This document shows, piece after piece, positions 1,775-41,847 of a stretch of 47,119 nucleotides of DNA. The notes under the pieces were generated by a model, which had not been told where the DNA came from, ran no database searches, and saw only the letters and a list, made by a program, of their open reading frames with translations. The DNA comes from Nitrospirota bacterium (GTDB lineage Bacteria; Nitrospirota; Thermodesulfovibrionia; Thermodesulfovibrionales; JdFR-85): positions 1 to 47,119 of the forward strand of contig JAYWMQ010000028.1 of assembly GCA_035873375.1 (NCBI GenBank). Direction: 5' to 3'. Made by a program: the position numbers and the translations under genes. Position 1 is the first letter of the stretch. Every line of letters begins with the position of its first letter.

Positions 1775-3736
1775 TTATTTTTTTAATGAATTGAACTTTT
1801 CGGTGTATTGCAGGACTACCCACACGAAAGCGGAATGGCTCCATGTGAGTGGTGAAACCGAGAGGGGAGAACCGTTTATGGGATGTACCTGCTCGGCAAG
1901 CACACCGGAAGGAAGCGCATTCTTTTCGCACCATTCAAGGTAGGGAAGGGCTTCGTGGAGTTCCTCCAGATTTTCAGCCCGAGAGATAAAGTACTCCCCC
2001 AACCAAAGCGTTGAGATAAACCATGGATTGCCGGGGATGCCCTTTGGGCTGTCATCCGCCAGTTGATAGATGTCATTTTGGTATCGGGCACAACCTTCAA
2101 CAGGAGTCTTGAGCCATAATTGACGGCGTATAGCCTCCATTGTTTCGACCATCCGTGGGTCGTTGGGGGGCAATGCTCCCAGAGTAGCGAGTCCCATCAA
2201 ACTGACGTCAATCACTTCATCAAGTACATAGCCCTTGCCCTTCCTGTAACCAGAGCGTGCGTACCTCTTCAGGCCGGGGTGGTACAGATGCGTGACAAGC
2301 CCTTCCTTCATCTGTTCAGCTACAATCTCATATTCTCCGGCCAGGGAGGTATCCTGAAAAAGTCTCGCAAAATTTGCCGCTGCCCTGAGCCCCGCAATCA
2401 CGGCTGCAACGGTAAAGGAGTGCACACCGTAACGCTCTTCCCAGAGATCATATGAGGGTGTAGGCAACAGGGTTTCGGGATCCCGGTACGTTACAAGAAA
2501 GTCTGCTGACTTTTTAATAAAATTATTGTAAAAAGGCCTGATGAATTCTATGTCTTTCGAGCTCTGATAATGTATCCAGAGCGCCCAGAGAATCAAGGCT
2601 GTTGAGTCTTCCTGTATGGGGAGCACCTCTTTTCCATCCACTAACCATGGGTGCCAGTTACTTGCCAGCGATTCATCAGGATTGTAATGCTGGTAAAGAA
2701 ATCCTTCCTCTGTCAGAACACGGGAGCAGAAGTCGAAAAATTTCATGCACACATGCGAGTAGCCTGCCTTTGCCAGGGCAACGGCTACAAAGGCCCCGTC
2801 GCGGCCCCACATATAAGAATATGTATCCCTTCCGAAACGGACTATATCCGAGTCGTTTGCGGCTATTATCGCTCCACGGTTGTCGATCTGTGTTCTTAAA
2901 ATGAGAAGGCTTCGGTTGAAAATCTCGGTGACTGATTTGGGAAGGTCTCCAAATGATCTGGCCTCTTTTTGTACCCAGGCTTTCCAGTAATCAGATGATC
3001 GCTTGATCAGTTTTTCAGGTGTCTTCTCTATTACATCCCGGTTGAGTTGGGCCACCTCATTGTAATGCCTGCCTGCTGCAATCCAGTAAAAGCACTCTGC
3101 CTTTCCGCCGGGGGGCAGGTTCAGCCATATTCCTATTGTTGAATCAGCAGAACCCCAGGAGATCGGGTTTCCGCTGAGTTTACCGTCCTCGGCGTCTCTC
3201 CATGTTCCTTCCCTTCCACCCAGCTCCTTGTCTCCGCAGGCATAGTAAGTCACGCCGGGCTTTCCGGCCCAGGAACAACTGATTAGAAAGTAGCGGTTGG
3301 CCTTGTAGTGTATGATTGAATGTGTCCGCGGATCAAAATAAGCCGTATCACCTATGTCATTGCCGTAAAGGTGAAAGTCGTGGCTGAAAAAGAGCCTTAC
3401 ATGACGCTCCTTCCCTTGCAGGTCCTTCACCTCGACCTTTTTAATATATACATTCAGGTCTATGTCAACCACATCATGGCAATGCAGTTCTATCCCTATT
3501 GCCGAGTTTCTCAGCACTACGTTGGTAACGAGGCTGTTATCATGATACCGCAGGTCCTTTTCCCATTCCGGCCCCATCCAGGAGCAGCGTCCATCCACCC
3601 ACACCCCAAAACGGAAGGGATCTCCTTTTGAATGGTTCTCCTGGCCGATTAAAGGGAAATACACATCGCGGATCTGATAATCCGAGTCAAAGTTGAAAAG
3701 AAGATTACCGTTGCTTACGGGAATGTCTTTGGGCAT
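1775..3736 (-). CDS. glycoside hydrolase family 15 (glucoamylase-like)
   Basis: The protein has 653 residues, normal for bacterial GH15 enzymes with an N-terminal beta-sandwich (residues about 1-250) followed by an (alpha/alpha)6 barrel. Barrel features include RDTYSYMWGRDGAFVA, typical of the GH15 active-site entrance, and YDLWEERYGVHSFT, which carries the general-acid Glu (WEER). A second acidic residue is expected near LAEQVHP. There is no signal peptide, so it should work in the cytoplasm, splitting alpha-linked glucose from glucans or a small glucoside. It begins 7 bases after the glycosyltransferase stop, so the two are almost certainly co-transcribed. Substrates seen in this family include starch, glycogen, isomalto-oligosaccharides and trehalose; the sequence does not decide between them. 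Confidence 0.85.
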   Translation of the reverse strand: MPKDIPVSNGNLLFNFDSDYQIRDVYFPLIGQENHSKGDPFRFGVWVDGRCSWMGPEWEKDLRYHDNSLVTNVVLRNSAIGIELHCHDVVDIDLNVYIKKVEVKDLQGKERHVRLFFSHDFHLYGNDIGDTAYFDPRTHSIIHYKANRYFLISCSWAGKPGVTYYACGDKELGGREGTWRDAEDGKLSGNPISWGSADSTIGIWLNLPPGGKAECFYWIAAGRHYNEVAQLNRDVIEKTPEKLIKRSSDYWKAWVQKEARSFGDLPKSVTEIFNRSLLILRTQIDNRGAIIAANDSDIVRFGRDTYSYMWGRDGAFVAVALAKAGYSHVCMKFFDFCSRVLTEEGFLYQHYNPDESLASNWHPWLVDGKEVLPIQEDSTALILWALWIHYQSSKDIEFIRPFYNNFIKKSADFLVTYRDPETLLPTPSYDLWEERYGVHSFTVAAVIAGLRAAANFARLFQDTSLAGEYEIVAEQMKEGLVTHLYHPGLKRYARSGYRKGKGYVLDEVIDVSLMGLATLGALPPNDPRMVETMEAIRRQLWLKTPVEGCARYQNDIYQLADDSPKGIPGNPWFISTLWLGEYFISRAENLEELHEALPYLEWCEKNALPSGVLAEQVHPINGSPLSVSPLTWSHSAFVWVVLQYTEKFNSLKK

Positions 3737-3743
3737 GGCTCTT

Positions 3744-5006
3744 TTATGTGGCTATGATGCCAAGCTGGAGAGGGTTCGGAAAATAGTCGATTAACAGCTG
3801 CCTGTAATTGAATGATGTTTTATGGTCAATGACTATCTGTTGATACAAGTCTGAATATTTATATGCCATGCTTGCTATGGAGAAATTATCCTGCACATGT
3901 CTCCGGCATTCATGAGGATCAATGCTATCGATGCGGTCAACGGCCTCAATCATGGCATTCAGTGAATCCACAACAAATCCCGTCGTACCATTCACAATTA
4001 TTTCCGGAACTGCACCCCTGTTGAATGCTATGACCGGCGTGCCGCATGCCATGGACTCGATCAGGACAAGCCCGAACGGCTCCCCCCATTGTATGGGGAA
4101 TAATGTGGCCCGTGCATGCCGGTACCATTGTTTCTTATACTCGCTGCCGACCTCTCCGATATAAATAATCTGCTCATCGCAGTCCAGTAACGGTTTTATC
4201 ACATCTTCAAAATAGTCACCATCAACAGGCTGTTTACCGATATCAACGAACAGGTCGATAGAGTCTTTCAATTCCTCAAAAAACTCCCTGTCTGCTGCTT
4301 TGTCCTGGACACAGCCGGCAATGATAAGTTTAGAGCCTGTTTTCCTGGCAACCTCTATGGCCTTATCCTGTCCCTTGTCCCGGGTTACCCTGCCGATAGT
4401 GAATAAATAGCTTTCCTTGTCAGGGTTCCTTTTGACCGGGTATTTTTCCACTTCAATTCCATGATATACAACATTCCCGGCCTTCAGCCCGTTATAGTCC
4501 TGTTTCTGATATTCGCTTATCGGGACACAATACACCTGTGGAGATGTCATGGGCTTACACCAGCGCCTGAAAGCTCCTTCCACCAGGTAGTTTTTTGCAG
4601 CCACGTGAAGGGTCAGCACGATCGGCACATGCATGCTCGATACAGATACAGCGTCATGAATGTACTCAAGGGTCCTCAGATCATGCGTGTGGATGACGTC
4701 AATGTCGCCTCTTCCTATCCTGTCTGCTGCCTTTAAAAGGTGAACATTCAGGGTTTTCCGTTTTTCCGGGTTGTCTTGACTCCAATAGTTACCCATGCTT
4801 TTCTCAATGGTCACATAATGCTCACCGGCAACTCCGGAATCACCTGAACAGGCAACAATCGAGCGGTGACCTAAAGCATGGAGTCCCTTGTCGATATTAT
4901 AAATAACCGTCTCAATGGGACCATAACCAAGGTCCGGCTTTATGGGCTGGTTAAGAGTTGCCACGTGCAACACCGTCAGTCTTCTATCTCGCGCTTTTAT
5001 TGCCAT
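3744..5006 (-). CDS. family 4 glycosyltransferase (GT-B)
   Basis: The best start is the ATG at 5006, because MAIKARDRRLTVLHVATLN begins with the first Rossmann strand; the longer version from a TTG at 5090 adds 28 atypical residues. The product has about 420 residues. LGYGPIETVIYNIDKGLHALGH is the N-terminal GT-B glycine/alpha region. TIGRVTRDKGQDKAIEVAR starts the nucleotide-sugar half, and GEPFGLVLIESMACGTPVIA holds the EX7E motif typical of GT4 retaining enzymes. It is upstream of and tightly linked to the GH15 gene, suggesting a make-and-break pair acting on an alpha-glucoside or glucan. The donor (UDP/ADP/GDP-sugar) cannot be read from the sequence. Confidence 0.8.
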   Translation of the reverse strand: MAIKARDRRLTVLHVATLNQPIKPDLGYGPIETVIYNIDKGLHALGHRSIVACSGDSGVAGEHYVTIEKSMGNYWSQDNPEKRKTLNVHLLKAADRIGRGDIDVIHTHDLRTLEYIHDAVSVSSMHVPIVLTLHVAAKNYLVEGAFRRWCKPMTSPQVYCVPISEYQKQDYNGLKAGNVVYHGIEVEKYPVKRNPDKESYLFTIGRVTRDKGQDKAIEVARKTGSKLIIAGCVQDKAADREFFEELKDSIDLFVDIGKQPVDGDYFEDVIKPLLDCDEQIIYIGEVGSEYKKQWYRHARATLFPIQWGEPFGLVLIESMACGTPVIAFNRGAVPEIIVNGTTGFVVDSLNAMIEAVDRIDSIDPHECRRHVQDNFSIASMAYKYSDLYQQIVIDHKTSFNYRQLLIDYFPNPLQLGIIAT

Positions 5007-27395: not shown

Positions 27396-27767
27396 CTACC
27401 CTTTGTCAAGCTGCTGTGTTACCAGCTTAATCAGTTCCTGGGTCTGTATCGGTTTTGGAAGGTAGGCATTGGCGCCTATGTCCATTGCCTTTTTTCTATC
27501 CTCCTCAGTCCCCTCGGTAGTTATTATTATTATCGGTATATTCCTGAATTCCGAATTTCCCCTCACGAGGCTTATCAGTTTCAGTCCGTCCATTACAGGC
27601 ATATTTATATCGGCAAGGATAATGTCAGCCTTCTCTGTTGACAGCTTTTTAAGTGCATCAACGCCGTCGGTGGCTTCTATAACCTTTGACCCGGGGATTC
27701 GGCGCATGGCAAAGCTTATAAGTTGTCTCATTGTTGGTGAATCCTCAACTACCAGGATAGTTGGCAT
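27396..27767 (-). CDS. CheY-like single-domain response regulator, last gene of the che operon
   Basis: The 123 residues are a lone receiver domain with Glu8-Asp9, phosphoacceptor Asp53 (LADINMP), Thr near 82-83 and Lys in PKPIQ. It is the last of the twelve minus-strand chemosensory genes, 10 bases after the GAF gene. It probably receives phosphate from the CheA at 39506-41479. There is no output domain, so it must act by protein binding; the target is not in the window. Confidence 0.92.
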   Translation of the reverse strand: MPTILVVEDSPTMRQLISFAMRRIPGSKVIEATDGVDALKKLSTEKADIILADINMPVMDGLKLISLVRGNSEFRNIPIIIITTEGTEEDRKKAMDIGANAYLPKPIQTQELIKLVTQQLDKG

Positions 27768-27777
27768 GGCCCCTCCT

Positions 27778-28605
27778 CTATTGTGTTGGTTTTCCTTTTA
27801 GAAGTGCAAGGAAGTTCTGGATAGTTGTGAACTCCCTCTCAGACCGGTTGTATAACCGGGATGAAAATATGGCAGTGGCTGCATGGCCTGCCAGAAGATT
27901 GAACAGTTCGTAATCAACATCGGAAAAACCGGTCTTCTGGTCGAGGAAGGAATAGATTGCAATCACACCAATCACATGCTCTTTGATCTTAAGTGGTATG
28001 CATACAATGGGGTTTGCGGGGTCCTCTGATTCCGTGTGAATCGATTCATCTGAAAAGTAGCTTTCCCCTTCCCTGACCACTTCTCCTATAACTCCCTTGT
28101 CTATTGGAATTTTTGCAGTATTGTCCATGTCAATATCTTCTGAGGCAATTGGTTCTAACTCTTCGAGCTTTTTATCAATTAACATTACAGAAAACTTCCT
28201 TGCACCTATCAGATTAATTATGATTTCAAGGACTATCTTCAGTACCTCTTCATAATCGAGTGTTGAGTGAAGTTGGTAACTTGCTACATACATATTGGCG
28301 AGGTTATTGTTTTCTTCTGCTACAAGTATATATTTCTGTGCAAAGTCCCTGTTCTCTGTCTCAGCTTTTCTGAATCTTTCTTTCAGGGACTCTGTCTCAT
28401 CTTCAAGCATTCTGATATGGTTTTCATAATTCCTTATCTTTGCTGCATTGGAATCCTGTGCCTGGGCTTCTTCAAGTTCTGCAATCCTGAACCGGAGATG
28501 TTCGTTCTCCTTAAGGAGGTCTCTGGTAAATTCCTCCCCCTTTTTGAATATCTGTAAAAACTCGTCTGCCTTTTTCAGGATGCCGGGCTCCTTATCCTTA
28601 TCCAT
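27778..28605 (-). CDS. coiled-coil GAF-domain protein
   Basis: The 275 residues have a charged helical N-terminus predicted as coiled coil (about 25-105) and a GAF domain (about 115-262: YEEVLKIVLEIIINLIGARK, PIDKGVIGEVVREGE, PIVCIPLKIKEHVIGVIAIY). There is no membrane segment and no catalytic output domain. It sits between cheB and cheY in the chemosensory operon and could link a small-molecule signal to the array or to the terminal CheY. The ligand is unknown. Confidence 0.8.
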   Translation of the reverse strand: MDKDKEPGILKKADEFLQIFKKGEEFTRDLLKENEHLRFRIAELEEAQAQDSNAAKIRNYENHIRMLEDETESLKERFRKAETENRDFAQKYILVAEENNNLANMYVASYQLHSTLDYEEVLKIVLEIIINLIGARKFSVMLIDKKLEELEPIASEDIDMDNTAKIPIDKGVIGEVVREGESYFSDESIHTESEDPANPIVCIPLKIKEHVIGVIAIYSFLDQKTGFSDVDYELFNLLAGHAATAIFSSRLYNRSEREFTTIQNFLALLKGKPTQ

Positions 28606-28663
28606 CTTGATTTATTTTCCTTTCAACTGACAAAAATCACTTTTTACGTCTGGAGGGAGAGAT

Positions 28664-29722
28664 TTATTTTTCTTTCATTACAACCCTTACAAGTTCTGAG
28701 GAAACCTCACTGAGGGGCAGGATCCTTTGTGCAGCGCCTGCTTTTATAACCTCATTGGGCATGCCAAAGACAACGGCAGTCTCTTCAGACTCGGTAATAG
28801 TATAACCGCCCCGCCTGAAAATTTCCACCATTCCCCTTGTTCCGTCATTTCCCATGCCGGTGAGCACAACGCCAAGAGTCATGTCTTTAAATATCTTTGC
28901 TGCTGATTCCATCATCAGGTTAATAGACGGCACATATCTGTCATTGTCTTCGGCATTTTTAAGCCTCGTATAAATCCTGTCATTCCCGGTCTTCAGCAGT
29001 AGGTGGCATCCCCCCGGGCATATAAGGGCCTTTCCGGGCTCAAGTGGTTCATCGTCCTCTGCCTCTTTAACCCTTATTGCCGAGAGTCTGTTCAGTCTTT
29101 CAGAGAATGAACCGGTGAATCCTCTGGGCATGTGCTGGCTTATAACTATCGGGGCCGGGAAGTTTTCCGGCATTTCTGTCAGGATTAACTGAAGTGCCTG
29201 GGGACCTCCGGTAGAGGCCCCGATGGCAACAATCCTGTCCGGAACTCTATTGGAGAAAACGGGAACCTTTTTCAACGGTCTTTTCCCGGATGTAACTCTC
29301 AGATTTCTGTTGAGCTTGCTCAGAGATGAGGCATCTATGTTCCTTACTTTTGCCAACAGGTCATTTTCAATGTTTTGAAGCTCAAACGATGCCCTTCTGG
29401 TTGGTTTGGCAATGAAGTCCACGGCACCCAGATCCAGTGCCTTGAAGACGGTTTTGCTGTCTGAATGGGAACTTACCATTATTACAGGTGTGGGACATTC
29501 TCTCATAAGCCATCTGAGGAAGCTGAACCCGTCCATCTCCGGCATCTCAAGATCCAAAGTGATTATATCCGGCCTGTAACGGAGAGTTTTACTTATGGCG
29601 TCTACTCCATTCACAGCAACCCCGATCACATCAACCATAGGGGTTTTCAACAGCATGTTTTTAATTGTCTGCCTGCTGAAGGCGGAATCATCGACAACCA
29701 GGACTTTTATCTTTTCCGGCAT
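28664..29722 (-). CDS. cheB: chemotaxis response regulator methylesterase
   Basis: The 352 residues contain a receiver domain (1-120; Asp57 in LDLEMPEMDG) and the CheB methylesterase domain with the triad Ser170 (GASTGG), His197 (SQHMPRG) and Asp293 (GMGNDGTRG). It removes methyl groups from, and deamidates, receptor glutamates and glutamines. Its start overlaps the cheR end by 16 bases. It presumably adapts the two receptors of the same operon. Confidence 0.96.
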   Translation of the reverse strand: MPEKIKVLVVDDSAFSRQTIKNMLLKTPMVDVIGVAVNGVDAISKTLRYRPDIITLDLEMPEMDGFSFLRWLMRECPTPVIMVSSHSDSKTVFKALDLGAVDFIAKPTRRASFELQNIENDLLAKVRNIDASSLSKLNRNLRVTSGKRPLKKVPVFSNRVPDRIVAIGASTGGPQALQLILTEMPENFPAPIVISQHMPRGFTGSFSERLNRLSAIRVKEAEDDEPLEPGKALICPGGCHLLLKTGNDRIYTRLKNAEDNDRYVPSINLMMESAAKIFKDMTLGVVLTGMGNDGTRGMVEIFRRGGYTITESEETAVVFGMPNEVIKAGAAQRILPLSEVSSELVRVVMKEK

Positions 29723-30606
29723 GAGATCATCCTTTGTAATGAAGATTTCTGTGATGAAGATTCCGGTTTCTGGTACACAAGGTCATGTTTGAGATGTTTG
29801 AGGGCAAAAGCGGTTGACATATTTATCAGGGACTCTGCATGTCCCAGGAGCAGGTACCCACCATCAGGCAACACATTATAAAATTCCTCTACCACCTTTT
29901 TCTTTGACGGCATGTCAAAATATATCAGCGCATTCCTGCAAAAGACTACATCCATACTGCCCAAAGAACTCATCTTTACCGCGTCAAACAGGTTGAGATA
30001 ACCGAAATTCAAGAGCCTTTTCACCCTGTCGAGTATTTTGAAGGAACCATCCGGCAGGGGTTCAAAATATTTGTTGATATAATACCTCTCTATGGACCTG
30101 AAGGAGTTCTGTCTGTAAATCCCTCTTCTTGCAGTCTGGAGCACCCTTCTGTTGATATCACTGCCAAGAATTTCGATGTCCCAGCCGTTGAAAAGATTAC
30201 TCTCAAGTATCAGCATGCCTATTGTATATGGCTCCTCACCTGTGGAACAGCCTGCTGACCAGATTCTTATCTTCCTGCTGTTTTTGTTCTTTTGTCTTAA
30301 TTCCGGCAGTATCTCATCGCTGAAAGAGAGAAGCTGATTCTTTTCTCTAAAGAAATATGTTTCATTTACTGTGAGAACGTCCATTATAGCTGCAAGTTCA
30401 TCTTCACGGTTTCTGTCGTAAAGGAGATACCTGTAGTAGTCCCTGTAATTGTTTATATTGTTTGTTCTGAGCCTGGCCGTGAGGCGTTTTTCGAGCAGAT
30501 ATCTGGCACTGTCGTCAAAGTAGATTCCTGAATAGTCCCTGATGAGATCTCTAAGGAGTCTGAAAGCATCGTCGGAGAGGGCAAAGGCCTCATGTTTTTC
30601 AAACAC
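29707..30606 (-). CDS. cheR: chemotaxis protein methyltransferase
   Basis: The 299 residues have the helical CheR_N domain (about 15-75) and the SAM-binding Rossmann domain with WSAGCSTGEEPYTIGM and DVVFCRNALIYFD. It methylates receptor glutamates. No C-terminal pentapeptide tether is seen on the receptors, so it must act without it. It overlaps the HEAT gene by 8 bases upstream and cheB by 16 bases downstream. Confidence 0.95.
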   Translation of the reverse strand: MFEKHEAFALSDDAFRLLRDLIRDYSGIYFDDSARYLLEKRLTARLRTNNINNYRDYYRYLLYDRNREDELAAIMDVLTVNETYFFREKNQLLSFSDEILPELRQKNKNSRKIRIWSAGCSTGEEPYTIGMLILESNLFNGWDIEILGSDINRRVLQTARRGIYRQNSFRSIERYYINKYFEPLPDGSFKILDRVKRLLNFGYLNLFDAVKMSSLGSMDVVFCRNALIYFDMPSKKKVVEEFYNVLPDGGYLLLGHAESLINMSTAFALKHLKHDLVYQKPESSSQKSSLQRMISCRKR

Positions 30607-32584
30607 CTAAGGCCACCTCGATAGCCTTTCTGACAGTAGGGTCGTCTTCAATATCATATATCCCTTCAAGACAGACTCTTGATTGTTGAGTGCCTGTTTT
30701 TGACAGTACCTGTACGGCAGCAAGTCTTGTCGCCCAGTCCTTACTGAAGAGATGTGGTTCAACCTCGTTTTCCACGTCAGGAAATGATGAAAGTGACAGG
30801 ATTGCCGTTCTTCGAATCTCTCTATCATCTGACAGGAGTAATTTTATCAGGGACTCTCTGGCCTCTTTTCTGTCATTGAAGAGCGAAATTGACTCAATAG
30901 CCTGTGTTACAACAAAACCATTAGCATCTTTTAACAACCCTGTCAGCGTTTTCAGAGATAAATCATTTTTGTATCTGGAGAGTGCGCGGGCTGCCGAGGC
31001 CCTGACGATTTCGTCAGGGTCATTTGTCATAACGATGATGGAGTTCAGGGTATCCATGTCACCAGGCAAAGAAAGATTTTCTGTGGCAATAGCACGTATC
31101 TCTGCTGACTCATCAGTTAATGCCGTACGGAGGTATCTGTTTGCATGTTCGCCTCCGATCATGGATATCGCCTTTACAGCAGCCTTTCTCACTTCTTCAG
31201 ACTCGTCCTTTACTGCAAAACCAAGTGCTTCAATTGACTCCCCGGCATGGATGTTTCCGAGAATAAGGGCGGTATTTTTCCTTGAGAGTATATTCGGAGA
31301 ATTTAGCTTATCGATCAGCTCGTTAATGGAAAGGAACTTTTTCAGTTCGGTCAGTGCAGCAACTGCAGCTTCCTGTACGTCCGGATAGGGATGTATGAGG
31401 AGAGGGAAAATTTCTTCTACAGCCCTCCTGTCTCCTATCCAGCCCAAACCCCTTGCAGCATAAGCAACCACATGGCCGTCGTGTTCCATCAGGAGCCATA
31501 AGAGTATGTCGTAAAACGCAGGGTTTTGAAGTTCGGAAATGACCTCAACTATTAATCTGCTCCTTTCAGGGATTTCCGTCTTTACGATGGGGATAAGGTA
31601 ATCAGGGTCTTCCTTGCCGATAAAGACCAGTGAACGTTTAACCGTATCCCTGAGAAACTCGTCTTTGGAAAGTTCAAGGAGCGGTCTTATTGCACGATGG
31701 TCACATAGAAGACCGAGAAGGACAATTGCCGGGCCTTTGACATCCTTGTTTTTATGGTTGATGTGTCTTACCAGTATGTCAAAGGCATCATCACCAAGTA
31801 TGTTGTGAAGTTGTTCGGATATGAACTCCTCAGATGCTCCGGCCTGGTAGAATTTCTCAATGGTCCTCAGTGTTTCTTCCACAATGGAGCGTCTCTGGTC
31901 ATGGAGAAAGGGGATGATTTCCTTCAGTGTTTCGGGTTCCGAGAACTCCGAGAGTGACTTAAGGGCCGGTTCGGTAAGAAGGCTGTTTTTGAGGACCTTC
32001 AAGAGATAAGGGATGACGGTTCTGTCCCCTATCTGCCCAAGGGCATCCACTGCGGGGTAAGCTGTCCAGACCTCTCCGGTCTCTATGATCTCCACAAGGG
32101 AGCCTATAACAGAGGCTTCCTTGAGCCTTCCAAGGCACTCAACGGCTGATGCCCTTACATTGACATCCTCATCCTTTATTGCCCTGAGCAGCAGGGGCAG
32201 GACCTCCTTTCCACCGATAAATCCCAGGACATCAATGATAAACTTTCTCACGTCGTGATTATCAGACTCAAAGGCATCGATGAGTTGAGGAACCGCTTTT
32301 TTGCCGAGCGTTATAAGGGCCTCTATCGCGGTATTGCGTGCCCCCGCATTATCTTCAACATAAAGAAGACCGATCAGGTCTTTTATATAACTATCCGGGC
32401 TGAAGCCCTCAAGCAGGACATTGAGTGCGGTTTTCCTTATTCTCCAGCTTTCATCCTTAAAAGAATCAAGAACGTAATTCAGACCCTCAGGCCTGTTCTT
32501 CATGGAGAGGATATTCTGCCGCCTTGATTCTATCTCTTTATTTTTTGTCTTTTTCGGGTCTTCTCTTGACACTTTCCCTTCCAT
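30599..32584 (-). CDS. HEAT-repeat scaffold protein in the che operon
   Basis: The 661 residues are built almost entirely of roughly 30-residue HEAT/PBS-lyase-like repeats, for example DVRKFIIDVLGFIGGKEVLP, NVRASAVECLGRLKEASVI, RAVEEIFPLLIHPYPDVQEA. GAGGTGA six bases before the ATG supports the 32584 start, which lies inside the end of cheW (47-base overlap). No enzyme motif is visible. The inferred role is a protein-binding scaffold for CheR, CheB or the signalling array. Confidence 0.85.
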   Translation of the reverse strand: MEGKVSREDPKKTKNKEIESRRQNILSMKNRPEGLNYVLDSFKDESWRIRKTALNVLLEGFSPDSYIKDLIGLLYVEDNAGARNTAIEALITLGKKAVPQLIDAFESDNHDVRKFIIDVLGFIGGKEVLPLLLRAIKDEDVNVRASAVECLGRLKEASVIGSLVEIIETGEVWTAYPAVDALGQIGDRTVIPYLLKVLKNSLLTEPALKSLSEFSEPETLKEIIPFLHDQRRSIVEETLRTIEKFYQAGASEEFISEQLHNILGDDAFDILVRHINHKNKDVKGPAIVLLGLLCDHRAIRPLLELSKDEFLRDTVKRSLVFIGKEDPDYLIPIVKTEIPERSRLIVEVISELQNPAFYDILLWLLMEHDGHVVAYAARGLGWIGDRRAVEEIFPLLIHPYPDVQEAAVAALTELKKFLSINELIDKLNSPNILSRKNTALILGNIHAGESIEALGFAVKDESEEVRKAAVKAISMIGGEHANRYLRTALTDESAEIRAIATENLSLPGDMDTLNSIIVMTNDPDEIVRASAARALSRYKNDLSLKTLTGLLKDANGFVVTQAIESISLFNDRKEARESLIKLLLSDDREIRRTAILSLSSFPDVENEVEPHLFSKDWATRLAAVQVLSKTGTQQSRVCLEGIYDIEDDPTVRKAIEVALGV

Positions 32585-33080
32585 GAGGGCTCACCTCTTC
32601 ATTTTTCAGTTTTTTCCTGGATCTCTTCAACTTGATTTTTTCCTCGCTTGTGAGTATACGTTCAATATCGAGAATTATTATTACCTTGTTGCTGTTGGAA
32701 GTTTTTGCCCCAACATAGGCATCTTTCTGTCCGAGTCCTTTTATAAACTCCGCCCTGAACCCTTTAAAGAGTTTAGGGGGCTTTGATATCTTTTCTTCGG
32801 ATATTTCCACTATATCCGTCACGTTATCCACAAGCAGACCAACCTTGTCCTCTTCAAGCCTGATAAGGATGACCCTCTGTTTGCCGGTCTTCTCCGTTAT
32901 GCCAAACCTGATCCTCAGGTCAATGACAGGGATAATCTCTCCCCTTACGGTTATCACTCCGGAGACGAAATCCGGAAGTTCCGGTATTTTGCACAACTCC
33001 TGAGTTTTGAGTATCTCAACAACACCCTGAATGTCCATGCCGAAGTTCTCATCAGCAATATCAAAGATAGTGTATCTCAT
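32538..33080 (-). CDS. cheW: CheW-like coupling protein with basic tail
   Basis: The 180 residues form a CheW domain (1-145: DIQGVVEILKTQELCKIPE, VRGEIIPVIDLR, GLLVDNVTDIVE) plus a Lys/Arg-rich tail of about 35 residues. It joins CheA to receptors. It starts inside the end of the receptor gene (ATGA overlap of 4 bases), suggesting it serves that receptor. It is the second CheW of the operon. GKTS-like region YVGAKTSNSNKVI is a loop, not a nucleotide site. Confidence 0.92.
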   Translation of the reverse strand: MRYTIFDIADENFGMDIQGVVEILKTQELCKIPELPDFVSGVITVRGEIIPVIDLRIRFGITEKTGKQRVILIRLEEDKVGLLVDNVTDIVEISEEKISKPPKLFKGFRAEFIKGLGQKDAYVGAKTSNSNKVIIILDIERILTSEEKIKLKRSRKKLKNEEVSPHGRESVKRRPEKDKK

Positions 33081-35071
33081 TGAGCACTGGTCCTGAAGAG
33101 TTCCACTTCTTTTCTCAATACCTCCACTTCGTTATGCAGGGATGTAATGAAGAGCGAGACCTCTTTAACATTCCTTGTTGTTTCCTTCCCTATCACCATA
33201 ACCTCTTCCATTGCCTCTATGATCCTCCTGTTGACTTTCTGCTGTTCAGCCGAGGCCCTTGCTATCTCAGCAGTCTTCTCGTTTGCGAGTTCGATATTAT
33301 CTGTGATAAATCGGGTACTCTCTGCCTGTTCATCCGTGGCATTTCTGGCAGCCTCCATTGACTCCTTGATTGAACTTATGCTTTCAAGGAGAGAGGCCGT
33401 GCCCCTTTCCTGTTGCTCTGTTGTCCTGTTGACATCCAGAATCATATTCTTGATATGCTCGATGGCATTGACGATAAGCTCAAGCCCCTTTGCCTGCTGC
33501 GCGGCGGCACGCTCAATGCTTGCTGCCATTTGTGTGGATTTTTGCGAGGCCTGCAGTATCTCTCTCAGGGTATCACCGGTCTTGAGTACCACATGGTTTC
33601 CCTCTTCAACCATCCTGACGGTCTCCATCGTACTCTCCATGGCCTCTCTAATCTCCTTCTGCAGGGTTGAGACAATGGTTGCAATGTCACGTGTGGATGC
33701 TGCGGTTTTTTCCGAGAGGTTCCTCATTTCATCGGCAACTATGGAAAAACTCTTTCCATGCTCCCCGGCCTGAACAGCGAGTATCTGTGCATTCAGGCTG
33801 AGCATGCCTGTCTGTTCAGTCACATCCTTGATAACCGACAGTATCTTTTCAATATCCCTTGACCTTCTTCCGAGCCTTTCAATTGTCTCTGTGAGGGAGT
33901 TGACGGAATTTTCAATCCTTTCCATCCCCTCAATTGCATCTACAACGGATAACATGCCCTTTTCTGCAATAATATTTGTTGTCCGGTTGCTCAGTTCAGC
34001 GGATTCCTTGATGGTTTTTTCTACTTCCTTGACAGAGGCATTGATTTCCTCAATAGAGTTTGAAGCCTGGTGTACGGCAGAAGTAGCATTATCCGCCATT
34101 GATGCTACTTCCTGTGCCGACTGTGTCAGTCCTGCCACTGTGGAGTATGAATTACTGATATTTCTATTGAGATTGCCTATATTGGATGCTATCTCCTCTG
34201 ATGAGGCCCTCATCTCAAGGAGCGCAGATACATTGTCATTTGACAATGAGAGGAGTTTTTCCGTATTGGCTATAGTCTGTTCCTGGGACCCGGAGGCATT
34301 TTTAACAGCCTTTGATATCTCCTCCAGGAACCTCTGTCGATTACTTATCCCGTTTATTACATTCTTGAATGTCAGGTTTAACTGGCTTATTGCCGCAGAG
34401 ACATTGCCTGTGATACTTTTTAGTTTCCTCACCGTGACCAGGAGCCGTTCAATGAGGAAGTCAAACCCCTTTGCTATGATTCCGATCTCATTGTCTTCTA
34501 CAATCTCTATCTTCTGCGTGAGGTCTCCAAGTGTGACCTTTTCTATGTTTGCGCTTAAACTCTCTATCTGTGTGCCGATATGCCTTTGAAAAAAGAGGTA
34601 GATCAGAAAGGTCAGGACAAGAAAGACGATACCCTGAAGTATCAGATTGGTGAGGATGAAAGCCATATCAGGTTTTACCTTTTTATAATGTACCGTTACT
34701 GTTCCGACCTTTCTATCCCCTTCCATTATTGGTGTCTCCATGCTTTGTGAAGCCCTCTCTTCAGGTGACCGAGCTTTTCTGAGCAGAAGCTTGCTGTTTT
34801 TGGTTACCTCTATTTCGACTATGTTTTCATCCTCGATAGCCCCGTCTGTTATCTGTTCAAGATATGTATAATCCTGACTTGTATTAACAGCGGCTGCAGC
34901 GTTTTCAATCAGGGTGGATACCATGTATATTCTTTTTCTTAAATCATTCTCGATTGTGATATTATGCCGGGAAAAAGACCAGTACCAGATAAAGGACTGT
35001 CCTATAAGGAGTATTATAAGGACCCTGAGTATGAATGTTGTGGAAAGTTTCTTTTTTATCTTCATGCGCAT
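33077..35071 (-). CDS. methyl-accepting chemotaxis protein with degenerate hairpin tip
   Basis: The 664 residues have membrane helices at about 12-33 and 138-161 around a periplasmic domain of about 105 residues, then HAMP (about 162-215) and a long coiled-coil signalling domain. The tip (about 420-445) reads QTGMLSLNAQILAVQAGEHG, whereas the usual form is [18 protein letters not shown]; several contacts for CheA and CheW are changed. The sister receptor at 35103-37955 keeps a more regular tip. It lies 31 bases after that receptor. Confidence 0.9.
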   Translation of the reverse strand: MRMKIKKKLSTTFILRVLIILLIGQSFIWYWSFSRHNITIENDLRKRIYMVSTLIENAAAAVNTSQDYTYLEQITDGAIEDENIVEIEVTKNSKLLLRKARSPEERASQSMETPIMEGDRKVGTVTVHYKKVKPDMAFILTNLILQGIVFLVLTFLIYLFFQRHIGTQIESLSANIEKVTLGDLTQKIEIVEDNEIGIIAKGFDFLIERLLVTVRKLKSITGNVSAAISQLNLTFKNVINGISNRQRFLEEISKAVKNASGSQEQTIANTEKLLSLSNDNVSALLEMRASSEEIASNIGNLNRNISNSYSTVAGLTQSAQEVASMADNATSAVHQASNSIEEINASVKEVEKTIKESAELSNRTTNIIAEKGMLSVVDAIEGMERIENSVNSLTETIERLGRRSRDIEKILSVIKDVTEQTGMLSLNAQILAVQAGEHGKSFSIVADEMRNLSEKTAASTRDIATIVSTLQKEIREAMESTMETVRMVEEGNHVVLKTGDTLREILQASQKSTQMAASIERAAAQQAKGLELIVNAIEHIKNMILDVNRTTEQQERGTASLLESISSIKESMEAARNATDEQAESTRFITDNIELANEKTAEIARASAEQQKVNRRIIEAMEEVMVIGKETTRNVKEVSLFITSLHNEVEVLRKEVELFRTSAQ

Positions 35072-35102: not shown

Positions 35103-37955
35103 TCATATCATCTTCAGTCTCGACATGATATCCCTTATCCAGGCATAGTCGTCACCATGTGCCTCAACAAAACCTGTATAGTGTTCATCAATGGATTTCA
35201 GTACCGTTATCCCTTCAGTGCCGGTATCCTTCAGCGCGAGGATGGCGGATTTTATCTCTTCTGCACTTTCCTCGGGTATATCCCTGGTAATACATATATT
35301 GAACTCGGGTATTTCTTCAGAGAATTTTATAAATTTCAATCCCTGTTCCTTATATTTATCCGCAGTTGATTCCATTACTCCTCCAGCGTCATACCCACCT
35401 GAAAGCACTGCCTTTGCCACATCATCGTGATGGCCGAGATAGTTATAGAAGAGGAGGTCGTCAAGGTCTATGCCGGCTTCAAGTAACATATACCGTGGCA
35501 CTATATGAGATGAGGTAGACTCCTGATCGCCAAAGGCAAATGAGCAGTCCCTCAGGTCCTCAATGCTTGATACAGGGCTGTCACTCCTTGCAATAATGAC
35601 CGAGTGGTGAAAGGGCTTGCCGTCCCTCAGGGCCTTGGCAATTACCCTTACGCCATAATCACGATTGGCCTTTATGTATGTTGAGGGGGTCATATAGCAG
35701 AGTTGTGTTACACCACTGCCGATCTCCTTTATTGCACTGTTGAAATCCACGCCCACCTTTAATTCCACCTTCTTGCCGAGTTTCCTGCCCAGGTACTCAG
35801 CGAGGGGGGTAAACTTTCTATACATATCCGCCGGAGATTCCAGGGGTATTACACCGAGCCTGAGGGTCTTTTCAGGCCTTGCGGATACAGAGAATCTGAA
35901 ACTTTCCATTTCCGTCACAATAAGTTCGGAGTCTTTAACGAGGGACCTGAGAGAATTGTTGACCTTGAATGAGAGGTTCCTGTTTTTAACCGGAAGGTCT
36001 GATATATTTTCTGCAGATCTCTTTATCTGTTCAGACTCTGTTTTCTGTTCATTTATGGCGCTGGCTATCTGCTGACTCTTTTCTGAAACCACATCAGTGC
36101 TCTTTATTATCTGTTTGCTCTGCAGGGATTGCTCCTCTGTAGCGGTTTTCACCTGCACGGCTATATCCTTAACCTTCTCCGCGGCATTCGTTATAAGGTT
36201 CATTCCCCTTGATTGCTCGGATGTTGCCTTTGCAATCTGACTTGCCATATTACGGACATTTTCCATTGACCTTGATACAAACCGTGCTGCCTCAGCCTGC
36301 TCCGAAGTTGAGTGTTCAATGGCCGTAGACATCTCTGAAGAAAGCTGTGCGCTCTCCACAATCTTTTTCAGTACCCCTGAGGCCTCCTGTGAGAGCCCGA
36401 GTCCCTCATTGACCGATTCAAGGCCGTGCTTCATTGCATCCACTGCGTCCCTGACCTCCTGCTGCACCGTCTGTATCAGTGATGAAATCTCCTGGGTAGA
36501 GAAGGATGTCCTTTCTGCGAGGTCTTTTATTTCATCGGCAACAACAGAAAACCCCTTGCCGTGTTCTCCTGCCTGGGCTGCCAAAATAGCCGCATTCAGT
36601 GCAAGGAGATTCGTCTGGTCGGTAACATCGTCGATTACTGTGAGTATCTTTCCTATCTCTTCCGACCTCCCGCCGAGCTTCTTTATATACTCTGCGGTCT
36701 TTTCAACAGAGGTCTTTATCCGTTCCATCCCCTCGATAGTCTTCCCGATGGAAGTCATTCCGTAAGTGGATGCCTCGTTCATGACCCGTTCACTCAATTT
36801 GGCGGATTCCTTGGTATTCCCTTCGACTTCCCTGATAGAGGCTGTAATCTCTTCAATTGCTGAAAGGGTGTCCTCAGCAGACCTGAAGAGATCATCAGCG
36901 CTCAGCGCAACCTCTTTTATGGAAGATGAGAGTTCCTCAATGGAAGCTGATGTAGATTCGGTTGATTCAAAGAGTTCGTTGCTGTTGTTGGCGATCTGGG
37001 AGGTGCTGGCAGCCATCTCTTCAACCGCAGCGGTGGTCTGTTCTGAAGATGCCGCAAGGTCTTCCGTATTTGCTGCAATCTCGGTGATTGCAGCGTTCAG
37101 TTCCTCTATGGAAGAGGAGATATTCGAAATAGCCTCGGCTTCGAGTTGAGTGCCTTCAAGAATATCCCTCGACTCCGATTCAACCTCTGAGGAGACCTTG
37201 GAGATTCTTTTAGTGACGTCCTTTACCCTCTGGAGGATTGAAGATATGGATTGAAGCGCATCCTGCAGCGCAGTGCTCGCCTGTCCGATTTCATCGGTAG
37301 AATCTATATCGACATTGAAGGTCAGGTCTCCATCCGAGAGGAGCCTGGCAGCCTTTTCTATCTTCTTTATCGGGTTAAGCACTATCTTTCTCAGAAGCAG
37401 CCACATAATAAAAGAGAGTATGGCTATGGCAAACAAGGAAGCGATGATAGTAACAGTTGCCATCTCTGCAATCTTTTCTTTCTCACTTTCAAGTGTCATG
37501 GAGACCTTGACCGCCCCGATGAAAGGGCTGTCAATCTTGTGGCATTTTTGGCATGCAGATCTTTTTATCAGTGGCTTGTAAACGGTCATTAGCCCGTTTT
37601 CGATCAGGGCGTAAGGGGAGAGGTTTGTCCTGAACCTTTCGACATAGCGCTTCTCTGTTGCAGGTGCTTTTCTGTCAAATGCTACCCGGCCTTCATGATT
37701 CAGGATAGTGATGGCCTCTACGCCTTTAAGTGCCTTGAGGTCGCCTGCCATGGCTTTGGTGATTTCAGCCCGTCCTTCAATCATGGTCCTTTCAATGCTT
37801 GTGCTGATTACCGTTGCGGTTTCAAACATTTTTTCCTGTGCGGTTTCGTAGATGTTTTTCTTCTGAAGATAAATAACCGTAGTTACGGCAAAGATAGCGC
37901 CCAAAATAATGACTGATATAACTACTCCAAGGACCTTTTTTTCAAGTTTTCCCAT
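35103..37955 (-). CDS. heme-motif receptor with cytoplasmic PhnD-like domain (MCP fusion)
   Basis: The 950 residues, in order: membrane helix 8-30; a periplasmic sensor with the c-type heme motif CQKCH at 135-139; membrane helix about 167-188; HAMP about 189-241; a methyl-accepting signalling domain about 250-690 with tip [20 protein letters not shown] at 447-466; and, after RPEK, a PhnD/phosphonate-type periplasmic-binding fold at 696-950 ([52 protein letters not shown]). With only two membrane helices the PhnD-like part must be cytoplasmic. AAGGAG precedes the ATG. Usual receptors end soon after the coiled coil; this has two candidate input domains. Confidence 0.93.
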
Positions 37956-38017: not shown

Positions 38018-38713
38018 CTATTGATTACCTTGAGGATGCGCCTTTTTTGTTATAGTTAACCCAAGCGCCTCCTCAGTCCTGAGTATTGTCATAAAGATTC
38101 CATCGGAGATAATAATACCTTCAATAAATCTTGCCTCTTCTTCTGTGATATGTGGAGGGGCCGGGTTGAGGTCTGATTCGGGCATCCGCCTGACCCCGAC
38201 AATCCTGTCTGCCATAACACCGATAGGCCCCCTTGGGCCTCTGACAATAACTATCTTGGCCCTTTGAGTGACCCTGTTCCGGTTTCTGTCCGTATCCGGG
38301 ATTTTTTCAGTATCAGTGATATTCAGTCTTGCCTTCAGGTCCACAATGGGGACCATCTTTCCCCGTAATGAACTTAGCCCCTTTACATAAGACGGAGTTC
38401 CGGGGACGGGTGTTATAGCGGGTGGATGGGCTATCTCCTGCACATCCCTCATATGGAAGGCATATGTTTCCGGTCCAAGCTGAAAACAGAGCAGATCAAT
38501 CCTTACCTCCGGTGTCTCAACCCCGATTGATTCCTCAGGAGAGGCTTTCTCCCCTGATTCTGCCGGCCCTTCCTTGATAACAGGTTTGGTATTTTCCGTC
38601 TTCTCTTCAGTGGTTTTCAACGTCTCAGTTTCCGTATCAGAAGGTTTGTGAGTAGATGGCTTTGCTGTCTTTCCGGCCTGTGCAGCCTTTTTCCTGATTT
38701 TAGCTATATCCAT
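38018..38713 (-). CDS. cheW: CheW-like coupling protein with disordered N-terminus
   Basis: The 231 residues start with about 70 low-complexity residues rich in Lys, Thr, Glu and Pro, then a CheW domain (about 71-225: LLCFQLGPETYAFHMRDVQE, GLSSLRGKMVPIVDLKARLN, IGVMADRIVGVRRMP). It couples the array. Its start overlaps the ATPase stop by one base. The long flexible N-terminus could bind the ATPase or reach neighbouring receptors (inference). Confidence 0.92.
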   Translation of the reverse strand: MDIAKIRKKAAQAGKTAKPSTHKPSDTETETLKTTEEKTENTKPVIKEGPAESGEKASPEESIGVETPEVRIDLLCFQLGPETYAFHMRDVQEIAHPPAITPVPGTPSYVKGLSSLRGKMVPIVDLKARLNITDTEKIPDTDRNRNRVTQRAKIVIVRGPRGPIGVMADRIVGVRRMPESDLNPAPPHITEEEARFIEGIIISDGIFMTILRTEEALGLTITKKAHPQGNQ

Positions 38714-39513
38714 CAGAGTCCGAGTTCCTCCACTGCATCCATGACATTGGTGTTGTCAATGAGTTGAGAGTCTTTTGAGAAGGCATCAAGCAGTGCCGAG
38801 GTTGCAATACTGTTTATAAGTCTCGGTATTCCCCCGGAATATATGTGGATAAGGCCTATCGCTTCATCAGTAAAGAGTCTGGTTTCCCTGCCTGATACCT
38901 TCAACCTGTGGTTGATGTATTCCGAGACCTCTTCTTCAGACAGGGGCGGCAGGTGATAGAATATCCCGATCCTCTGCCTAAGTGGGGCATATGCCCTGTG
39001 TTTCAACCGTCTGAGAATATCCGGTTGAGCCACAAAAATCAGGCTTATAAGGTTGGTATCGTCGAGCTGGAAATTGGTAAGGAGCCTTATTTCTTCAAAT
39101 GTCTCCTTTTTAGGTATAAGCTGTGCCTCATCAATAATAATCACAGGTGTAATGCCGTTTTCATGGTCCTCATAGACCTTCCGGTAAATAGCATCCAGGA
39201 GGTCATCCTTATGATTAAAAGGAGGTTTTACCTCCATGCGGCGCGCGATTGTTCTTAAAAACTGGTTTGCCGTCAGCCTTGGATTCACGATAAGTATTAT
39301 CCTGTATTGGTCATTCAAAGAGTCCATTAAAGCCCTTGTGAGCGTGGTCTTTCCGCATCCTATCTCACCTGTAAATAATATGGTTTCCTTTTCTTCCACA
39401 ACGTACTGAAGTCTTGCAAAGGCCTCCTCATGTGCCTTGCTGAGATAGAGAAACCGGGGATCCGGGGTCTTGTTGAAAGGTCTTTCACTCAACCCGTAAA
39501 AGTCTTTATACAT
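38713..39513 (-). CDS. ExeA/GspA-like AAA ATPase in the che operon
   Basis: The 266 residues begin with MYKDFYGLSERPFNKTPDPR, the standard opening of ExeA/GspA-like (AAA_22) ATPases. Walker A is GEIGCGKTT (49-57) and Walker B VIIIDEA (124-130), with a sensor/arginine region LRQRIGIF near 178-185. There is no membrane helix or peptidoglycan-binding domain, unlike full GspA. It sits between cheA and cheW with overlaps on both sides (8 bases and 1 base), so it belongs to the operon. Its job in signalling, perhaps positioning or assembly, is not known. Confidence 0.9.
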   Translation of the reverse strand: MYKDFYGLSERPFNKTPDPRFLYLSKAHEEAFARLQYVVEEKETILFTGEIGCGKTTLTRALMDSLNDQYRIILIVNPRLTANQFLRTIARRMEVKPPFNHKDDLLDAIYRKVYEDHENGITPVIIIDEAQLIPKKETFEEIRLLTNFQLDDTNLISLIFVAQPDILRRLKHRAYAPLRQRIGIFYHLPPLSEEEVSEYINHRLKVSGRETRLFTDEAIGLIHIYSGGIPRLINSIATSALLDAFSKDSQLIDNTNVMDAVEELGL

Positions 39514-41479
39514 GTACCAGTCCCTTGTGCCTGAGCAGGATTTCCTCTGTCAAGGTCTCAACGTCTATGACAAGTATGACATTGTGCCTGCCGATTTCCG
39601 TAACACCTGCAACCCCCTTTAATCCCTCGAAATATCCACCGAGGGACTTTATAACAATCTCCTGCCCACCAATAAGTTCGTCTACAAGGAGTCCAACCCT
39701 CCGTTCTTCGTATCCGGAAACCACAATATATCGGCTCTCATGATGGCCGCTTTCACGGGTCTGAGAACCGATTTCGAAAAAATCCGATACCGGCATAACA
39801 GGCAGCAACTCTCCCCTCAGGTTATACACTTTTTTGCCTTCTATGCTCTGAAGGGCATCCCTGTCGACTATCAGGGTCTCGGAGATCGATGACAGTGGTA
39901 AGGCAAAGGTATTGATGCCGACTCTTATCAGCAGTGACTTGATAATGGCAAGGGTGATGGGGATGGAGAGAGAGAATCGCGTATAAATGTCTTTTTCCGT
40001 CCTTACATCCACAAACCCGCCTATCGAAGATATCCGGTTTTTAACCACATCCATGCCGACTCCTCTTCCCGACACCTCTGTTACCTTCTCTTTTGTGCTG
40101 AATCCTGCCCTGAAGATGAAGCCTATCAATTCTGTATCGTCTATCTCTGTTCCGGCAGTAATAATCCCTTTTTCCAGGGCTTTTTCCCGTATCACTTCCG
40201 TGTCAATTCCTCTGCCGTCGTCCTCTATTTCTACTATTACGTTATTGCCACGTTGAAAAGCCTTAACCCTGATGGTTCCCCTTTCAGGCTTGCCCCTTCT
40301 CTTTCGTTCTTCAGGGCTCTCTATCCCGTGGTCTATGGCATTTCTGACAATGTGCATCAAGGGGTCCACGATCTCTTCGGCGATGAATTTATCCAGCTCG
40401 GTCTCCTCTCCAAAGACCGTCAGATTAACGGGTTTTCCTATCTCCTGAGAGTATCGTTTTACTATCTGTGCAAGGCGTGAAAATATCTGACCGATAGGCA
40501 CCATACGAATCTCCAGTACCTGCTGCTGTAATTCCGACAGTCTCCTTTCAAGACTCTGGTATGCCCTGTGCATATCAAAGACAAGCTCTGAGTGCCCGTA
40601 GATTCCTGCAAGTTCGCCTTCTATGCGTTTAATGGCCCCCTTGGTAAGCGTGAGTTCTCCAATTGTGTTGAGTATCCCGTCAAGTTTTTCTATATCCACT
40701 CTTACAGTGGTTGAAATGCTTTTTAGTGAAGGCTGTAGTTTCCGGGCTGTTGTCTTTTTAGGCTTGCTGCCCGTAATCTGTTCGGGCGCAATGCCAATGG
40801 CGGTTTTCAGGGAATCAGGGTCTTTGTCGGATGCAAAGAGAAGTTTGAATCCAAGAGAGTCTGGCGGCATGTTTTCAGAGGTGGGGAGGATTGATATCAA
40901 TTCCCCTTGCTTTTTGATCTTTTCTGTAAGTTCAGCAAGTGCTTTGTCAAAGTCTTCAAGGGAGAAGACCGCATTTATGGTGAATATTGCCCTCTTCTTT
41001 TTTATATTTGCTCTCAGTCTCTGTTCTTCATAATTGGAGAGTACACTGATAATTGCCTCATCAATAACGCCGCTTAATGACTCCTGCTTTTGCCGGCTTG
41101 AGGTCTTCCGACCGAATACCTTTATATCTTCAAGATAAGGTGTTACATCAAAATCATTCCCCTGCTCTGCCTTTTTAAGCAATTCTCTCAGGATGTCAAT
41201 GTTTTTGAAAAGGAATCTGATAACATCATCGCTGACCTCGATATTGCCAAGCCTCAGACTGTCAAGGATCTCCTCAATGGCATGGCTCAGATCTTTTAGT
41301 CCCTCAAGCCCGAAGAGGCCTGAAATCCCCTTTAGTGTATGGATGGATCGAAAGAGGGCATTAACAGTGTCGGGATTAGCCCCTGTCTCAGCGGATTCCT
41401 GAAGTTCGAGGAGATGTTCCTCGGCCTCTCCAAGTAACTCTTCCGCCTCTGAGATAAACTCCTTTTTTGATGAATTCAT
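39506..41479 (-). CDS. cheA: chemotaxis sensor histidine kinase
   Basis: The 657 residues: P1/Hpt domain with phosphoacceptor His47 (RSIHTLKG); a P2-like alpha/beta domain (about 160-232); P3 dimerisation (about 258-325); P4 ATPase with N box HIVRNAIDHGIE (376-387), G1 DDGRGID (420-426) and G2 GRGVGMDVV (471-479); and the P5 CheW-like domain (about 510-655). It autophosphorylates under receptor control and feeds the two CheY proteins and CheB. It overlaps the upstream cheY by 4 bases. Confidence 0.97.
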   Translation of the reverse strand: MNSSKKEFISEAEELLGEAEEHLLELQESAETGANPDTVNALFRSIHTLKGISGLFGLEGLKDLSHAIEEILDSLRLGNIEVSDDVIRFLFKNIDILRELLKKAEQGNDFDVTPYLEDIKVFGRKTSSRQKQESLSGVIDEAIISVLSNYEEQRLRANIKKKRAIFTINAVFSLEDFDKALAELTEKIKKQGELISILPTSENMPPDSLGFKLLFASDKDPDSLKTAIGIAPEQITGSKPKKTTARKLQPSLKSISTTVRVDIEKLDGILNTIGELTLTKGAIKRIEGELAGIYGHSELVFDMHRAYQSLERRLSELQQQVLEIRMVPIGQIFSRLAQIVKRYSQEIGKPVNLTVFGEETELDKFIAEEIVDPLMHIVRNAIDHGIESPEERKRRGKPERGTIRVKAFQRGNNVIVEIEDDGRGIDTEVIREKALEKGIITAGTEIDDTELIGFIFRAGFSTKEKVTEVSGRGVGMDVVKNRISSIGGFVDVRTEKDIYTRFSLSIPITLAIIKSLLIRVGINTFALPLSSISETLIVDRDALQSIEGKKVYNLRGELLPVMPVSDFFEIGSQTRESGHHESRYIVVSGYEERRVGLLVDELIGGQEIVIKSLGGYFEGLKGVAGVTEIGRHNVILVIDVETLTEEILLRHKGLVHV

Positions 41480-41847
41480 GAACTTAAAACCAACCGAATC
41501 TTCTCCTGAAAGTCTTCAGGCCTGAAGGGTTTTGTAATATATGCCTCTGCCCCAAGTGCCAATCCCCTCTTTTTATCCTCCTCCGACCTTTCAGTACTCA
41601 CTATGATCATTGGTATGTCTTTATATTGCGGTGTGGTTTTTACAAAGTTAATCAACTCAATGCCGTTTATATCAGGCATATTTATATCTGTTATTATCAG
41701 ACTGAAACCTTCGGTAGGGAGTATTTTGAGGGCCTCAAAGCCTGTGCCAGCCTCAAAGACCTGATACTCTTCTCCAAGGTCCTCAATAATTGTTCTCATC
41801 ATGGAGCGGGTTGATTCGGAGTCTTCTACCACAAGTATGTTTTTCAC
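41476..41847 (-). CDS. CheY-like response regulator, first gene of the che operon
   Basis: The 123-residue lone receiver domain has Glu8-Asp9 (VVEDSES), Asp54 (ITDINMP) and Lys in ITKPFRP. It opens the chemosensory operon; the start is a GTG preceded by GGAGGTGA. It overlaps cheA by 4 bases. It is about as similar in style to the terminal CheY as two paralogues usually are; which one is the output and which a phosphate sink cannot be told. Confidence 0.92.
   Translation of the reverse strand: MKNILVVEDSESTRSMMRTIIEDLGEEYQVFEAGTGFEALKILPTEGFSLIITDINMPDINGIELINFVKTTPQYKDIPMIIVSTERSEEDKKRGLALGAEAYITKPFRPEDFQEKIRLVLSS

Follow-up and report, generated by a model that had tools for sequence, protein, structure and literature searches.

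A conserved Nitrospirota chemoreceptor with a predicted periplasmic heme sensor and a C-terminal PhnD-type domain

The window, a stretch of 47,119 nucleotides from a Nitrospirota genome (contig JAYWMQ010000028.1 of assembly GCA_035873375.1), contains a chemosensory gene cluster in the order CheY, CheA, AAA ATPase, CheW, fused receptor, second receptor, CheW, HEAT protein, CheR, CheB, GAF protein and CheY. The genes are located as follows.

41476-41847, reverse strand: CheY
39506-41479, reverse strand: CheA
38713-39513, reverse strand: AAA ATPase, ExeA-like, between CheA and CheW (cluster conservation 55-93% identity)
38018-38713, reverse strand: CheW
35103..37955, reverse strand: whole gene of the 950-aa chemoreceptor with a C-terminal PhnD-type domain (single open frame, stop codon within the coordinates, full-length orthologues)
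33077..35071, reverse strand: second chemoreceptor, 664 aa, adjoining gene in the same conserved cluster
27396..33080, reverse strand: CheW, HEAT-repeat protein, CheR, CheB, GAF protein and CheY
30599-32584: the HEAT-repeat protein, 661 aa, a conserved cluster member
27778-28605: the GAF-domain protein, between CheB and the terminal CheY

The association is conserved, with CheW found near the receptor at 34 of 39 named loci, the AAA ATPase at 25 and CheA and the HEAT protein at 24 each, many of these loci being cut by contig ends. Chemoreceptors are few in the genome, where three frames score over the cut-off. Since both PilT-type ATPases and FliG are encoded in the genome, the output could be either pili or flagella.

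The domain order in the 950-aa receptor is TM1, periplasmic sensor, TM2, HAMP, a long hairpin and a PhnD/PtxB-type domain. All of the following features are on the reverse strand.

37872..37928: TM1, residues 10-28 (hydropathy peak 2.67)
37461..37865: periplasmic sensor domain of the c-heme Cache/PAS-like type, about residues 31-165 (profile matches to PDB 3b47 and 3b42; PF21563 and PF11845 in members)
37782..37784: Met58, predicted distal heme ligand (aligned with the Met after helix 1 of 3b47/3b42)
37539..37553: CQKCH, heme c attachment motif, residues 135-139, with His139 as the predicted proximal ligand (sequence and conservation)
37392..37448: TM2, residues 170-188 (hydropathy peak 2.73)
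37245..37397: HAMP domain, residues 187-237 (PF00672, 2.5e-10, Pfam)
35904..37244: receptor hairpin, residues 238-684, tip Glu464 (PF00015 at 396-569; model helices 222-651 and 654-684)
35904..35996: conserved linker helix 654-684 around Pro655 (conservation and model)
35106..35870: PhnD/PtxB-type domain, predicted to be cytoplasmic, about residues 696-950 (PF12974, TIGR01098, AlphaFold2 model and PtxB match)
35511..35519: Ser813-Thr814-Ser815, oxyanion-binding motif, equivalent to S130/T131/S132 of Te_PtxB
35427..35429: His843, equivalent to PtxB H160
35370..35372: Glu862, invariant in the fused family
35301..35303: Phe885, in place of the capping Tyr208 of PtxB

The protein has the hallmarks of an MCP, including a signalling domain over the Pfam cut-off (MCPsignal, 3.4e-43, 147.9 bits against 34.6), two TM helices, HAMP and linked CheA/CheW/CheR/CheB genes. 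The Phosphonate-bd family PF12974 matched over its full model length at residues 700-937 (1.9e-63, 214.5 bits against 27), so that both domain assignments of an earlier note, made from the letters alone, stand well over their cut-offs, in a receptor with a standard hairpin. Only two hydrophobic segments were found in the receptor, at residues 10-28 and 170-188 (mean Kyte-Doolittle 2.7); the hydropathy scan gave no third membrane helix, the next best segment reaching 0.9. Because HAMP and the CheA/CheW-binding hairpin come after TM2 and no later membrane crossing follows, the PhnD-type domain is predicted to be cytoplasmic, as had been proposed from the two helices. A substrate-binding protein of a transporter is secreted by its own signal peptide, whereas this domain lies C-terminal to HAMP and MCP in the same frame.

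The periplasmic domain resembles the solved c-heme sensors of Geobacter. A profile built from 35 sensor domains matched PDB 3b47 at 6.8e-15 and 3b42 at 7.9e-13, and both the CQKCH motif and Met58 were present in 35/35 aligned orthologous domains. Met58 lines up with the Met found in the Geobacter domains, and in GSU0935 His144 and Met60 are the ligands of one heme (PMC8396549). By alignment, the sensor is homologous to GSU0582/GSU0935, distal Met included, and would carry a covalently attached c-type heme; cytochrome c assembly proteins are encoded in the genome. The heme motif noted earlier at residues 135-139 is supported in position, and so is the heme-binding type of the sensor. As to the DUF3365-like assignment suggested with it, PF11845 matched 21 and PF21563 matched 34 of the 35 members; the window protein alone scored 20.4 bits with PF21563 against a cut-off of 27 (relatives reach 5e-15). 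Sensors of this type belong to the recently named sCache_heme / DUF3365-Tll0287 family, whose signalling members show NO-sensor properties (PMC12889525). By analogy, the expected signal would be a redox- or NO-driven release of Met58.

The C-terminal domain was modelled with AlphaFold2 (residues 680-950) at a mean pLDDT of 94, with a disordered start at residues 681-694. In the structure comparison (Foldseek, VIA-align), the closest structure was phosphite-bound PtxB (rmsd 2.0 A over 249 residues, Z 32), followed by ArrX, PhnD, HtxB and AioX, and the open form of PtxB was clearly farther from the model (rmsd 4.9 A); AlphaFold2 favours closed states, and its model is no proof of a ligand. The domain also passed the general phosphate/phosphite/phosphonate-binding subfamily TIGR01098 (153 against a cut-off of 112). 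Thus, the complete-looking PhnD/phosphonate-type domain described earlier at residues 696-950 is borne out by both profile and model.

In PtxB, the ligand is contacted by Y55, Y100, S130-T131-S132 and H160 under a cap formed by Y208 and D22 (PMC5700983). The serine-threonine-serine motif and the histidine are retained in the receptor, and Y55, Y100, D22 and Y208 correspond to F738, H783, L705 and F885, respectively. Among 40 aligned fused domains, the oxyanion residues are highly conserved (S813 in 40, T814 in 35, S815 in 34 and H843 in 39), as are the replaced cap positions (F885 in 38 and L705 in 34), and E862 is present in 40/40 fused domains as compared to 8/34 free relatives. Conservation is higher at the eight pocket positions than elsewhere in the domain (mean entropy 0.66 versus 1.38, p 0.01). 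The alignments indicate that the oxyanion core has been kept and that a new, family-specific cap has been fixed. The earlier note had asked whether the cleft might be closed and devoid of binding residues; the fold is intact and the oxyanion site is in place.

Colinear full-length orthologues of about 950 residues were identified among 60 related genomes and the genome itself, with 88-95% identity in four genomes of the same genus and 49-70% identity in other families; in a fifth genome of the genus, the gene is divided between two contigs. A profile of the linker and PhnD domain gave 94 matches, counted from the match table, over essentially the whole profile (E <= 1.6e-92) in 87 of 395 Nitrospirota genomes, a sample of the phylum spanning several classes. 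The named carriers among the matches listed are Nitrospirota, mostly Thermodesulfovibrionales or Thermodesulfovibrionia, and the MCP and PhnD domains share one frame in the loci inspected. No linker-plus-PhnD match was obtained in 22 genomes, nearly all non-Nitrospirota, that carry the closest free PhnD relatives, the longest frame being 671 aa. Both parts of the receptor are under purifying selection, with a dN/dS of about 0.03-0.12 for the PhnD part against sister genomes. In the tree of PhnD domains, the fused domains cluster with 99/91 support, and a single gammaproteobacterial clade of free domains falls among them at weak support; the other free sequence inside the fused group (L046) comes from a fused gene that is truncated at a contig end and disrupted by frame changes. 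A single ancient origin of the fusion is likely from this tree. We conclude that the fused receptor is an old, conserved and phylum-wide architecture; the arrangement that the earlier note had considered unusual is real and is no isolated curiosity.

The outside part of the receptor varies among relatives. It is replaced by a Cache_3-Cache_2 domain in L037, by an sCache_3_2 match without CxxCH in L130 and by a non-matching domain in L040, and only a TM hairpin stands in its place in L033, L041 and L140. A second, shorter family of 635-655 aa (L125-L128) lacks a periplasmic domain altogether and runs from a TM hairpin through HAMP and MCPsignal to PhnD. The PhnD domain is missing in only a few orthologues (L042, L043), and these retain the linker helix 654-684. 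Across these relatives, it is PhnD that persists and the heme domain that can be exchanged. Its persistence in receptors with another periplasmic sensor or none makes PhnD, on the cytoplasmic side, the probable main input. The two-input receptor envisaged in the earlier note is still the most economical reading, but with the emphasis reversed.

Other arrangements of related domains were also observed. At L126 (similarly at L127), a short MCP-PhnD receptor without periplasmic domain (L126:915-2882) stands ahead of a free-standing Tll0287-like c-heme sensor that carries TM and HAMP (2938-3900; PF11845 9e-37), and the heme input of such short receptors may be supplied by the neighbouring protein. 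On one contig (L040, G039:C113), a free PhnD-type protein is encoded close to two fused receptors. Two PhnD-type domains stand in tandem in proteins of 561-595 aa from several phyla (L095, L105, L106, L107). The genome's other strong PhnD-type protein (L002:1429-2319) is preceded by a 279-aa ORF resembling another binding protein, and no ABC ATPase or permease was seen within the short stretch around it.

Our main reading, to which we give a probability of about 0.6, is that this is a genuine conserved Nitrospirota chemoreceptor which combines a periplasmic redox or NO input with an input from a small intracellular oxyanion or phosphorylated metabolite. On the outside, the Cache/PAS-like domain with its covalent c-type heme (His139 proximal, Met58 distal) would probably report redox or NO, and displacement of the Met ligand would send a signal through TM2 and HAMP. 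The arms of the hairpin on either side of Glu464 are nearly equal in length (about 227 and 221 residues), and the returning arm should therefore end at the level of HAMP, with PhnD beside HAMP and the adaptation region. We base this position on the geometry of receptors and not on the full-length model, which at a pTM of 0.38 is too uncertain for placing PhnD on the bundle. On the inside, the PhnD/PtxB-fold domain would sit on the conserved linker helix, where the second arm reaches the HAMP level, and we infer that it binds a ligand and is coupled to signalling. Its probable ligand is a small oxyanion or phosphorylated metabolite of the cytoplasm; by closing on it, the domain would bias the HAMP/adaptation region, and hence CheA. 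This closure could tilt or clamp the end of the bundle and shift the balance between kinase-on and kinase-off that the periplasmic signal sets. More tentatively, and at somewhat less than even odds, the receptors may form a phylum-wide class in which a venus-flytrap fold serves inside as a constant metabolite sensor, attached beside HAMP where the hairpin returns. The periplasmic input would then be the exchangeable one (heme, another Cache domain or none at all), and the ligand would be new for the PhnD fold.

Several other explanations were weighed against the main reading. The window comes from a draft genome of 63 contigs, where an assembly join or a frameshift could have created the fusion, and the earlier note had singled out residues 690 to 696 for such a break. 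This was rejected, and we give it hardly any probability, since the same colinear fusion occurs in dozens of independent assemblies and genera, with matches across the phylum and a low dN/dS in the PhnD part. Almost as improbable is a PhnD-type domain outside the cell, in a topology unlike the usual receptor layout. The fold is normally periplasmic, but the receptor has two membrane helices only, HAMP and the CheA/CheW-binding tip separate TM2 from the domain, and the short relatives likewise have just a TM hairpin ahead of HAMP.

Weighing against the main reading are the few orthologues that lack the domain and the pocket itself, which lacks two ligand-contact tyrosines of PtxB (F738 and H783 stand in their place) and the Asp/Tyr cap, so that any binding might be weak or different in kind. 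The same changes speak for a rival reading in which the domain no longer takes a small ligand and is instead a structural module or a docking site for proteins such as CheR/CheB, the neighbouring receptor or the HEAT or AAA protein of the cluster; it travels with a conserved cluster that includes the latter two, and a few orthologues manage without it. However, the serine-threonine-serine motif and H843 are almost invariant, the pocket is more conserved than its surroundings, and the family-specific conservation of E862 and F885 is what would be expected of a specific ligand and not of a dead pocket, and we consider docking unlikely. An ordinary phosphite or phosphonate sensor, reporting from inside the level of an imported reduced-P compound, appears more doubtful still. 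PtxB and PhnD are the closest solved relatives and share the oxyanion core, but the cap does not fit: the exchange of Tyr208 alone for Phe in PtxB lowers phosphite affinity by about three orders of magnitude (PMC5700983), and here Asp22 is replaced by Leu as well. Furthermore, the score with the PhnD equivalog TIGR03431 is far below its cut-off (139.6 against 261.1), and no PhnC over its cut-off was found in the genome. Specificity for phosphite or phosphonate by family name was rejected. Since the cap differs from those of phosphite- and phosphonate-specific proteins, "PhnD" names a fold here and not a ligand. With the changed cap and with a PhnC-type transporter gene lacking, the predicted ligand is probably neither phosphite nor a simple imported phosphonate. 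Of the oxyanion or other small ligand suggested earlier, the oxyanion part is consistent with the retained core, but the cap is unlike that of phosphite or phosphonate binders.

If the main reading of a two-input receptor is correct, the family would show intracellular metabolite levels steering motility, and it would provide a natural receptor in which outside redox and inside metabolite are separable by mutation. Binding-protein folds are usually treated as outside sensors, and this would be a conserved receptor family with the fold moved inside. The analysis also provides a hypothesis for the function of a conserved chemosensory cluster in a little-cultivated phylum.

Receptors with heme Cache domains are known, and so are receptors that end in a cytoplasmic sensor, such as DcrH with its hemerythrin and Tlp1 with PilZ (PMC13401364); in the papers searched, we came across no chemoreceptor described as ending in a PhnD-type domain. 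The available text of the single paper found on PF12974 and chemoreceptors contains no description of such a fusion, and survey work acknowledges cytosolic or receptor-borne SBP-like domains and filters cytoplasmic or fused binding-protein folds out as non-SBPs (PMC9602780). GSU0582 and GSU0935 of Geobacter sulfurreducens (PDB 3b47, 3b42) share with the receptor the periplasmic Cache/PAS-like domain, the CxxCH ahead of TM2, the equivalent Met, HAMP and the MCP output, but the identity of the sensors is low and we have seen no C-terminal PhnD-type domain reported for them. DcrA of Desulfovibrio vulgaris is likewise a c-type heme receptor, and DcrH of the same species has the same order of periplasmic domain, HAMP, MCP and C-terminal cytoplasmic sensor (PMC13401364). 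The C-terminal hemerythrin of DcrH is, however, a diiron, O2-binding bundle, whereas the C-terminal domain of this receptor is a two-lobed binding-protein fold of the PF12974 family. PtxB, PhnD and HtxB share this fold and the oxyanion site formed by serine-threonine-serine and histidine, but they are secreted, free components of transporters, and their cap residues differ. The signalling binding proteins ArrX, AioX and XAC2383 also have a PhnD-type fold and are partners of receptors; they are separate proteins that act from the periplasm, whereas the domain described here is fused to the receptor and predicted to lie inside the cell.
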